Positions 21,494-46,222 of a stretch of DNA of 64,000 nt are shown piece by piece. The position numbers were made by a program, and so were the translations under genes. Position 1 is the stretch's first letter. Every line of letters begins with the position of its first letter. A model generated the notes under the pieces. It was not told where the DNA came from. It was given only the letters and a program-made list of their open reading frames with translations, and made no database searches. The stretch is from Sphingomonas brevis (GTDB taxonomy: Bacteria > Pseudomonadota > Alphaproteobacteria > Sphingomonadales > Sphingomonadaceae): the NCBI RefSeq assembly GCF_023516505.1, contig NZ_JAMGBB010000001.1, positions 496,001 to 560,000 of the forward strand. Direction: 5' to 3'.

Positions 21494-21588
21494 CCGTTCG
21501 TCCTGAGCGAGAGATAGACCCAGAACTCCGTCATCCCCATGCGCGCCCTTCGACTACAGCCCTTCGGGCTTCCGCTCAGGACGAACGG
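21494..21588. repeat. Dispersed palindromic repeat, family D, VOC-lexA gap
   Basis: Bounded by CCGTTCGTCCTGAGCG and CGCTCAGGACGAACGG, perfect inverted ends of 16 bases. An internal hairpin (AGCCCTTCGGGCT) lies near 21559. Related to 3775-3842. Confidence 0.8.
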
Positions 21589-29256: not shown

Positions 29257-29326
29257 CGTCATCCCCGCGAAAGCGGGGACCCAGCGGAATCAATAGATTT
29301 AGGTTCCCGCTTTCGCGGGAAAGACG
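29257..29326. repeat. Dispersed palindromic repeat, family B, trxB-pit gap
   Basis: Left arm CGTCATCCCCGCGAAAGCGG, right arm TCCCGCTTTCGCGGGAAAGACG, inverted copies of one arm around an AT-richer centre. It lies between convergent genes, where it could stop transcription from both sides. The same family is inside fmt (35685-35756). Confidence 0.8.
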
Positions 29327-31921: not shown

Positions 31922-31998
31922 CGTCATTGCGAGGAGCGCAGCGACGAAGCAATCCAGCAATCCAACATCTGGATTGCTTCGCTACGCTCGCAATGACG
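31922..31998. repeat. Dispersed palindromic repeat, family C, copy 1
   Basis: Arms CGTCATTGCGAGGAGCGC and GCTACGCTCGCAATGACG flank two GCAATCCAG/GGATTGC units, an imperfect long palindrome. Its last bases (CAATGACG) contain the ATG used by the downstream acyl-CoA ligase gene. Other copies: 36546-36618, 38181-38266, 38676-38761 and 46136-46215. Confidence 0.85.
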
Positions 31999-34801: not shown

Positions 34802-35542
34802 TCAGGGATACACCGCCTCGACGAAATACAGCCCTTCCGGCGGCGCGTTGAGGCCGAGCGCCTGCCGGTCCTTCGCCTCCAGCGCGGTCTTCACATCCCC
34901 CGGCGTCCACCGACCGCGCCCGACCAGGGCCAGGCAGCCGACCATCGATCTCACCTGGTGATGGAGGAAGCTCCGGGCGGCGGCGCGGATATGGATTTCC
35001 TCGCCGACTTGGCTGACCGTCAGGCTGTCGAGCGTCTTCAACGGACTTTGCGACTGGCAATGGACCGATCGGAAGGTGGTGAAATCATGGCGCCCGACAA
35101 GGTGCGCCGCGCCCTCGGCCATCGCCTCCGCATCCAATGCGATCGGCACATGCCACACCTTGCCTTTGTCCAGCGCGGGAGGGGCGCGGCGGTTCAGGAT
35201 CCGATAGAGGTATCGCCGGCCGACGCAGCTGAATCGCGCATGCCAGTCGTCGGCAACCGGCTCGACCGCCGTCACGCTGACCGGGGCGGGCCTGACCAAT
35301 GCGTTGATCCCCTCGCGCAACCGATGTTCAGTCAGCGTCTTCATAACGTCGACGTGGGCCGCCATCGCCAGCGCATGCACGCCCGCGTCAGTGCGCCCTG
35401 CGGCATGGATCGTGGCCAGCTCCCCGGTCATCCGGAACGCCGCCTGCTCCAGCGCCTCCTGCACCGACGGGCCATGGTCCTGCCGCTGCCAGCCCATGAA
35501 CGGCCCGCCGTCATATTCGATCGTCAGGCGCCAGCGGGTCAT
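34802..35542 (-). CDS. truA: tRNA pseudouridine(38-40) synthase TruA
   Basis: 246 residues. Catalytic Asp in [15 protein letters not shown]-terminus [17 protein letters not shown] and the C-terminal [13 protein letters not shown] are typical. Its ATG overlaps the fmt stop (ATGA at 35539-35542), so both are translated from one message. Confidence 0.96.
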
Positions 35543-36507
35543 TGAAGCATCGTGCCCTTTGCGATTGCAAAGCCTCGAAGCAGCTCGTTGCCGCTCATCG
35601 CGCCCTTACCGGCGCGCTGCAGGAGCGTCGGCCTAAGGGCGCCATTGCCGCACTGGATTAGCAAGCCATCGTCCAATACCTGTCCGTCATTCCCGCGAAA
35701 GCGGGAACCCAGATCTTCTATTTGGTCCGCTGGGTCCCCGCTTTCGCGGGGATGACAAGCTGAAGGTTCAACTTCCGCGGCCAGGATCTTGATCCGCTCG
35801 CCATTGGCTTCGAACCAGGCGCCTGGGAAGGGCGCCAGGCCACGGACGAGGCGGACCAGCTCGGCCGCTGGCCGTGACCAGTCGATCCGCGCCTCGGCCT
35901 TGCTGATCTTGCCGGCATAGGTGACCCCATCCTTGGGCTGCTCGATCGGATCGTAATTGGGCAGGTCGGCGAGCACCTCGACCATCATCGCCGCGCCCAA
36001 TTTCGCTAACTCTTCCGTGAGTTGTGCAGCATTCTTGTCATCGATTTCAACCGCGCGCTTGAACAGCATCGGGCCAGTATCGAGGCCCGCCTCCATCTGC
36101 ATGATGGTGATGCCGGTCGCCTCATCGCCGGCCATGATCGCCCGCTGTACCGGCGCGGCGCCGCGCCAGCGCGGCAGCAGCGAGCCATGGACGTTCAAAC
36201 ATCCCAGCATCGGGGCATCCAGGATCGCTTGCGGAAGGATCAGGCCATAGGCGGCGACCACCGCGACGTCGGCCTCCAGCTCGGCGAAGGCCTGCTGCTC
36301 CGCTTCACCTCTGAGCGACTTCGGATAGCGAACCTCGATGCCCAGCTCTTCGGCGCGTTGCTGCACCGGGGTCTCTCGCTCGCCCTTGCCGCGGCCGGCG
36401 GGGCGAGGCGGCTGGGTATAGGCCGCGACCACCTCATGGCCGGCGTCGACCAGCGCCTCGAGCGTCGGTACCGCAAAGTCCGGGCTGCCCATGAAGATGA
36501 TCCGCAT
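35539..36507 (-). CDS. fmt: Methionyl-tRNA formyltransferase, with in-frame repeat insertion
   Basis: Formylates initiator Met-tRNA; 322 residues. N-terminus [19 protein letters not shown], the catalytic region [34 protein letters not shown] and the C-terminal OB domain. Residues about 251-274 are encoded by a family B palindromic repeat (35685-35756) inserted in frame, between the end of EVEPSA and [13 protein letters not shown], in the C-terminal domain. The rest of the enzyme is intact, so the protein is probably functional. Followed by truA; def lies about 750 bases away on the other strand. Confidence 0.95.
35685..35756. repeat. Family B palindromic repeat inside fmt
   Basis: 72 bases (24 codons) with both arms intact: GTCATTCCCGCGAAAGCGGG and CCCGCTTTCGCGGGGATGAC. 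It is the same element as 29257-29326 and encodes a hydrophilic Arg/Gly/Asp-rich stretch in Fmt. Confidence 0.9.
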
Positions 36508-36545: not shown

Positions 36546-36618
36546 GGATTGCTTCGTCACTGCGTTCCTCGCAATGACGGTATCTCTGTCGTCATTGCGA
36601 GCGAAGCGAAGCAATCCA
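36546..36618. repeat. Dispersed palindromic repeat, family C, copy 2 (arms swapped)
   Basis: Two family C units meet the other way round: GGATTGCTTCGTCAC...GCAATGACG followed by CGTCATTGCGAGCG...GCAATCC. It lies between the divergent fmt and recR starts and ends three bases before the recR ATG. Confidence 0.8.
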
Positions 36619-38180: not shown

Positions 38181-38266
38181 CGTCATTGCGAGGACCCCGG
38201 ACTTGGTCCGGGGGACGCGGCAATCCAGTTGCGACGCTGGATTGCTTCGCTACGCTCGCAATGACG
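38181..38266. repeat. Dispersed palindromic repeat, family C, copy 3, with nested hairpin
   Basis: Arms CGTCATTGCGAGGACC and GCTACGCTCGCAATGACG. The left arm carries a nested CCCCGGACTTGGTCCGGGG hairpin (38194-38212). It lies between convergent genes. Confidence 0.8.
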
Positions 38267-38664: not shown

Positions 38665-38675
38665 TAGAATTCTCC

Positions 38676-38761
38676 CGTCATTGCGAGCACGGCATAGCCG
38701 GGCGCGGCAATCCATGCACCCCCCAATGGATTGCTTCGTCTCTTCGTTCCTCGCAATGACG
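38676..38761. repeat. Dispersed palindromic repeat, family C, copy 4
   Basis: Arms CGTCATTGCGAGCACGGC and GTTCCTCGCAATGACG with GCAATCC/GGATTGC inner units. It lies between the divergent DUF326 and hydrolase-OsmC starts, so it must lie in or beside both promoters. Confidence 0.8.
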
Positions 38762-38768
38762 GGCTGAA

Positions 38769-46128: not shown

Positions 46129-46135
46129 TACAATT

Positions 46136-46215
46136 CGTCATTGCGAGGAACGGAGTGACGAAGCAATCCAGAACGGCAGAGCAGGAGTGGCTGGATTACT
46201 TTGCTCGCAATGACG
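46136..46215. repeat. Dispersed palindromic repeat, family C, copy 5
   Basis: Arms CGTCATTGCGAGGAACGG and TTTGCTCGCAATGACG with GCAATCCAG inside. It lies between the RNA methyltransferase start and the HPr stop. Confidence 0.8.
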
Positions 46216-46222
46216 ATCGACG

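Follow-up and report, generated by a model that had tools for sequence, protein, structure and literature searches.

A REPIN unit is a pair of REPs in inverted orientation, separated by a short spacer. REPINs that are mobilised by a RAYT have been described (in the part of PMC3116915 cited here), and RAYTs are tied to REPs of the GTAG type, as stated in the portions of Di Nocera, De Gregorio and Rocco 2013 (PMC3733652) on which we draw throughout. The same portions describe CGTC REPs, which carry a CGTC tag, an 8-9-bp stem, a 4-5-nt loop and a CCA-like tail, form head-to-head dimers, occur mainly in alpha-proteobacteria and have no dedicated transposase (PMC3733652). CGTC-1 in particular has an 8-bp stem with A-T pairs at its first two positions, a 4-nt loop and the tag variants TGTC and CCTC; homodimers predominate, an excess that we treat as a tendency rather than a criterion since exceptions are given. 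CGTC-1 of Neisseria is equated with dRS3 and that of R. conorii with RPE-6, RPE-1 being a longer insertion. Already known from these portions are intragenic REPs encoding 20-30 aa, also in sphingomonads, and truB as a target; in S. alaskensis and E. litoralis, REPs lie in the genes of tRNA pseudouridine synthase B and in those of tRNA synthetases. It is likewise reported that the REPs in recB of Xanthomonas campestris and X. oryzae share about one common site, and that REP sites differ for the other genes within a functional category (PMC3733652). Fmt is not named among the intragenic cases of the main text as cited here, the supplementary list aside. A more recent source on the subject is RepRanger 2025 (PMC12306157, cited in part).

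Here we describe a palindromic element inside fmt of a sphingomonad genome of 2.59 Mb (99.99% complete, 2 contigs) and explore which genes and which sites such elements occupy. The window is the whole stretch of 64,000 nucleotides that was analysed, bases 496001-560000 of contig 1. Other genomes and loci are referred to by our own G and L labels where they have to be told apart. The features concerned are the following, in window coordinates.

35542..36507, minus strand: fmt, methionyl-tRNA formyltransferase, 322 aa; stop codon at 35539-35541; insert = residues 251-274
35685..35757, no strand: CGTC-1-type REP head-to-head dimer, 73 nt including both 4-nt tags
35685..35712, no strand: left REP arm, T-type, CGTCATTCCCGCGAAAGCGGGAACCCAG
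35713..35729, no strand: arm-to-arm spacer, 17 nt
35730..35757, no strand: right REP arm, C-type, TGTCATCCCCGCGAAAGCGGGGACCCAG on the minus strand
35686..35757, minus strand: 24 in-frame codons from the element
29257..29326, no strand: second dimer copy, intergenic, trxB to pit

An earlier note on this DNA had reported a 72-base palindrome with both arms intact. The arms are indeed complete (35686-35712 and 35730-35756, 27 nt each, 93% complementary, 17 nt between them), and the size of 72 bases holds for the in-frame codons at 35686-35757 but not for the full element, which takes up 73 nt at 35685-35757. The tags are CGTC on the left and, on the minus strand, TGTC on the right. The 4-nt loop of the arm is GAAA, the tail after the stem (CCCAG or CCTAG) fits a short unpaired CCA-like tail, and the stem within one arm, read by eye, has 7 contiguous pairs with the first A opposite C. 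The coding-strand RNA folds at -51 kcal/mol compared with -21.7 +/- 3.1 in 200 shuffles (z = -9.3, 0/200 as stable), which bears out the strong mRNA hairpin expected by the same note within the coding region.

By most of the published criteria, applied to its sequence, the fmt element is a head-to-head CGTC-1 REP dimer. With the CGTC-1 dimers of PMC3733652, as described in the portions cited, it has in common the tag, the 4-nt loop, the CCA-like tail, the head-to-head arrangement, an alpha-proteobacterial host and the lack of a dedicated transposase. It differs in the stem, which is 8 bp in the published description and 7 bp here by eye, and the published copies are mostly homodimers whereas those of this genome are mostly T/C heterodimers. 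The palindromic elements of Rickettsia, to which the insert had been likened, are also in-frame palindromes within conserved protein genes (here fmt and truB). They belong to another alpha-proteobacterial order and the likeness is limited to the published equivalence, yet the comparison is apt because CGTC-1 of R. conorii is equated with RPE-6 (PMC3733652, portions cited). The element shares the inverted-REP-pair layout of RAYT-mobilised REPINs, but no Y1_Tnp gene was found in its genome. A search for this RAYT-type gene gave 0 matches in the genome studied, with the control positive in 5/14 genomes, and found it in only 3/71 genomes of the genus; a RAYT was therefore rejected as the mover. 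The REPs of Xanthomonas recB resemble our case in the repeated use of a site within one gene; there it is one gene in two species, as far as the portions cited report, whereas here several unrelated palindrome families are found at common sites in several genes.

With at most one mismatch allowed, the 14-nt core CCCGCGAAAGCGGG matches the genome 46 times, the reversed pattern 5 times. Reading 31 core-pattern sites by eye gave 23 dimers, 5 single or degenerate copies and 3 chance-looking ones, and one arm is degenerate in some of the 23 paired copies; since sites were chosen by the core pattern, the copy count is a lower bound. A covariance model of the element found 62 matches in the same genome, both strands counted, and had matches in 51/71 genomes of the genus. 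The consensus of the 23 aligned dimers is CGTCATTCCCGCGAAAGCGGGAACC[C/T]AG, a variable spacer and then an inverted C-type arm. A T-type arm is paired with a C-type arm in at least 17/23 dimers (read by eye), and homodimers do not predominate. The copy between trxB and pit that the earlier note had listed is real, and in G054, whose Fmt is the most closely related, the syntenic gap is empty, the flanking matches being only 16 nt apart. The note had also proposed a genome search for further genes holding the unit. Of 28 element sites compared with open reading frames and no annotation, fmt and truB are, as read by eye, the clear cases of an in-frame copy inside a gene. At three other loci of the genome (L113, L125, L126) CGTC elements are located at the predicted N-terminus of exported-looking proteins, whose start codons may be inside or downstream of the repeat.

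The reading frame of fmt stays open across the whole element including both junctions. Both Fmt domains are detected by Pfam, the C-terminal one spanning the insert, and with the 322-aa frame unbroken the claim of an in-frame insertion is upheld. Fmt of the closest relatives has 301 aa with a loop that reads 'AAEMAGGHRGPGEVLDD' or similar, so that 21 codons have been gained on balance; beside the insert, where the alignment is loose, about 3 codons of the host are absent. The figure of exactly 24 codons is thus correct for what the frame reads, though it does not give the length of the insertion. Because both arms are read without a stop and the length changes by +63 nt overall, a multiple of three, a full-length Fmt is predicted. 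In an AlphaFold2 model (44 aligned sequences, mean pLDDT 93.5) whose fold matches 5uai and 2fmt, the element is placed in the turn joining two beta strands of the C-terminal domain. Blocks 251-260 and 261-270 have pLDDT of 61 and 59, the neighbouring blocks 93, and residues 251-274 probably form a hydrophilic, disordered surface loop, modelled with low confidence. Conserved motifs including GLDTG, which we take to belong to the catalytic region, are intact. Judged from its substitution rates against G054 (dN 0.105, dS 0.686, which cover the whole branch and not only the time after insertion), fmt is under purifying selection. A full-length Fmt carrying the 24-residue loop would, we infer, be made and functional.

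Among named relatives, a Sphingomonas MAG (nzgw538), S. caseinilyticus, S. cremea and S. edaphi come nearest in Fmt. The nearest Fmt is 89% identical over residues 1-246. A C-terminal Fmt query matched 68/71 genomes of the genus and the loop was parsed in 66; the same-genus sets lack 5/71 genomes for Fmt (66 rows) and 4/71 for TruB (67 rows). Loop length is 34-36 aa in 61 of the 66 and 56 aa in the genome studied, and a CGTC-1 dimer was found in none of the 65 other parsed loops. G009 (L007) has a single half-repeat with 3 mismatches in 23 to the arm and with the right junction of our element, and the loops of the other relatives differ from the arm by at least 8; the half-repeat may be what is left of a dimer, or it may have inserted independently. 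The alignment recommended in the earlier note shows the loop to be empty in close relatives. Its suggestion that the insertion is recent holds only in relation to sister species, the nearest Fmt being 89% identical and the half-repeat being present in the more distant G009. The note had named loops of similar length with unrelated DNA in all related Fmt proteins as evidence against its reading; such a pattern does not appear within the genus and appears in part outside it, where the loop of some relatives in the family contains unrelated palindromes. In G007, the fmt locus (L174) has two overlapping Fmt matches with a stop, a frameshift or an assembly error.

The comparison was extended to 172 Fmt rows, of which 18 are named contigs whose Fmt DNA is the same as that of a G genome; G040, with a partial Fmt, was excluded from loop scoring. 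All non-genus Fmt rows, like the 45 TruB rows from outside the genus, were picked by score, mostly with an insert-bearing query, so they give no estimate of frequency. Insertions of at least 8 aa relative to the core alignment amount to 15 segments in 13/172 rows, all of them in one loop and distributed over 8 core columns. An inverted-repeat score of at least 12 was obtained for the loop in 10/172 rows versus 2/1415 control windows of 126 nt from the remainder of fmt and truB, loop lengths varying around 126 nt. The ten comprise the genome studied, G075 and G191 (CGTC-type dimers), G290 and G439 (other palindromes) and, with weaker palindromes, G196, G400 and G554 (scores 12-13). The last two are S. 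lycopersici and a related MAG, whose Fmt loop contains a CCGTTCG-type palindrome. No palindrome was found in the Fmt loop of G522 and L096, both of which are long-insertion rows, or of G321.

The second internal in-frame CGTC dimer of the genome is in truB (L129:2952-3024), in a turn that joins strands 148-157 and 186-193 of the model and has a pLDDT as low as 52-54. Among 67 parsed TruB loops of the genus, 36 have exactly 25 aa, the empty length, and 20 have at least 39 aa. The inverted-repeat score reaches 12 or more in 14/67, with about six repeat families by eye; the long loops of G054 and G009 show no clear palindrome. Over all 112 TruB rows, insertions of at least 8 aa occur in 65, every one at the same place, and 49 loops are palindromic (score at least 12). 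For rows whose loop has at least 36 aa, the 27 nt that follow a conserved Leu codon were scanned for a CGTC-like tag. This gave 28 tagged rows, among which G005 probably has no true tag and related rows are counted separately. The tag starts 6 nt after the Leu codon in 18/28, at offset 0 in 5/28 and otherwise at 2, 3, 9 or 10, and it is in phase 0 in 26/28. The TruB row of the genome studied (tag CATC) falls outside the 28, and the tag of G324 lies further in, beyond the 27 nt searched. On a quick genus tree of 62 genomes, built without the loop and with 19/59 inner branches weak, the long TruB loop is scattered, requiring 14 changes versus 15.1 +/- 1.3 when shuffled (595/2000 shuffles as low). 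Beyond the order but within the class, most of the TruB matches listed are split at the loop, which was readable in 8 of the 29 loci added for this comparison.

A long TruB loop cannot be read as a repeat, a notion we rejected as many long non-genus loops are not palindromic. An extension of the type 'GRPDPYDP' with low inverted-repeat scores is present in G082, G095, G169, G334, G176 and similar rows, and long loops were therefore not equated with repeats. The loci L365, L366, L313 and L377 have a conserved non-palindromic extension (GRPDPYDP..APLE), which in G089 (L377) is adjoined by a CGTC dimer.

In the alpha subunit of a CoA-carboxylase, 32 loci were collected and 27 parsed. The loop contains CGTC dimers in G034 and G045 (Pfam) and several other palindromes elsewhere, 9/27 parsed loops scoring at least 12 in what is a score-picked sample. 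The homologue in the genome studied (L416, ~C1:2447608-2447985; 68% identical over the searched part) has in this same loop an element that is in frame but belongs to another palindrome family, with the peptide VIARSEATKQS...LLRSARND. G034 also has an in-frame CGTC dimer (L276:2499-2568) inside an ABC-type ATPase (Pfam ABC_tran), presumably SufC.

We consider it probable, at about three chances in four, that a CGTC-1 REP dimer inserted in fmt and was kept because the turn tolerates additional residues, and that the same filter operates elsewhere. A non-autonomous REP dimer, of which the genome has at least 23 paired copies, would have inserted into fmt and come to lie where two beta strands of the C-terminal domain are joined by a turn. 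Alleles that keep the frame in such a tolerant turn would survive and insertions elsewhere in Fmt would be lost. The same filter acting on other proteins, in the loops of Fmt, TruB and CoA-carboxylase alpha, is proposed as the reason why different palindrome families recur in the same few loops. That inserts survive only in tolerant surface turns is most likely, and would account for the confinement to a single loop in each protein, the diversity of families and the scatter on the tree. The insertion thus seems mobile-element-like and its site would be explained by tolerance rather than by targeting. No target-site duplication was found by eye at the loci compared, nor a strain-level empty site with near-identical flanks, so that no insertion event was caught. 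A further rule, that of the open frames the one in use is the most hydrophilic, was tried on the cases with another open frame; it failed (19/41 TruB, 2/8 Fmt) and was dropped as a general rule.

Tolerance by itself leaves the repeated TruB boundary unexplained, the regularity of the tag exceeding what it predicts, and two other readings address this boundary. A transposase or recombination process that recognises the truB site in the DNA, and that of fmt less strictly, would bring different families to the same nucleotide; the identical offset and phase of most TruB tags across several families and genera speak for such targeting, as does the scattering of long loops over the tree. We think it unlikely, as inspection by eye revealed neither direct repeats nor a conserved DNA target common to empty and filled sites, families without the CGTC tag occupy the same loop, some tagged TruB inserts are at other offsets, Fmt insert positions spread over several columns, and a RAYT was not found here and is rare in the genus. 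The common boundary would also follow from one old insertion per site that was replaced in place by other CGTC-tagged palindromes through recombination or gene conversion, truB and fmt alleles moving between species. TruB insert rows are often flanked by LEEITL and most empty rows by SATL (by eye), and the right junction of the half CGTC repeat in G009 Fmt equals that of our element, both of which agree with replacement. This history is nevertheless improbable: more than half of the TruB loops in the genus have exactly the empty length, which is hard to reach by erosion, tagless families are at the site as well, and long loops do not cluster on the tree.

The remaining two readings weigh still less. 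Fmt and TruB both act on tRNA, and the hairpin is very stable, as might be expected if the mRNA hairpin or the added loop were functional and selected, for example by adjusting the expression of fmt or truB. That insertions might be selected is raised as a speculation by Di Nocera 2013 (PMC3733652, portions cited). Against this, the peptides encoded by the different families differ, most genomes of the genus lack inserts, and no overall frame preference for hydrophilicity is seen, which makes selection very improbable. An artefact of assembly or annotation is scarcely credible; the element is known from assembled contigs alone, but the frame is open across both junctions with conserved flanks, the genome is near-complete in 2 contigs and other assemblies have palindromes in the same Fmt loop.

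What is new here is the repeatability of the insertion site across palindrome families, and no report of many such families re-entering one loop of one protein was found in the open-access literature. In-frame REPs have so far mostly been described as scattered cases; here several families re-enter single loops in many species. We tentatively suggest that fixed turns of Fmt, TruB and CoA-carboxylase alpha may be landing pads for many unrelated Sphingomonadaceae palindrome families, often nucleotide-exact in TruB, possibly through a shared process of insertion or exchange that goes beyond tolerance. The filled, partly filled and empty alleles constitute a natural series in which to test by what route palindromes that have no known transposase are moved, and whether new protein segments arise by tolerance or by targeting.

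Other palindromes are present in the window. A second CGTC-tagged family (CGTCATTGCGAGGA...) is located at 31922-31996, ~36566-36616, 38181-38264, 38674-38763 and 46135-46216, its copy near 36566-36616 being directly upstream of fmt. At 21494-21588 there is an inverted repeat, CCGTTCGTCCTGAGCG, that resembles the Fmt palindrome of S. lycopersici. A related palindrome (CGTCGTGCCAGCGAAGGCTGGCATCC...GGGGTGACG) occurs twice, at 557-653 and 1286-1370, and a family similar to it is present in TruB of G022 and G063.
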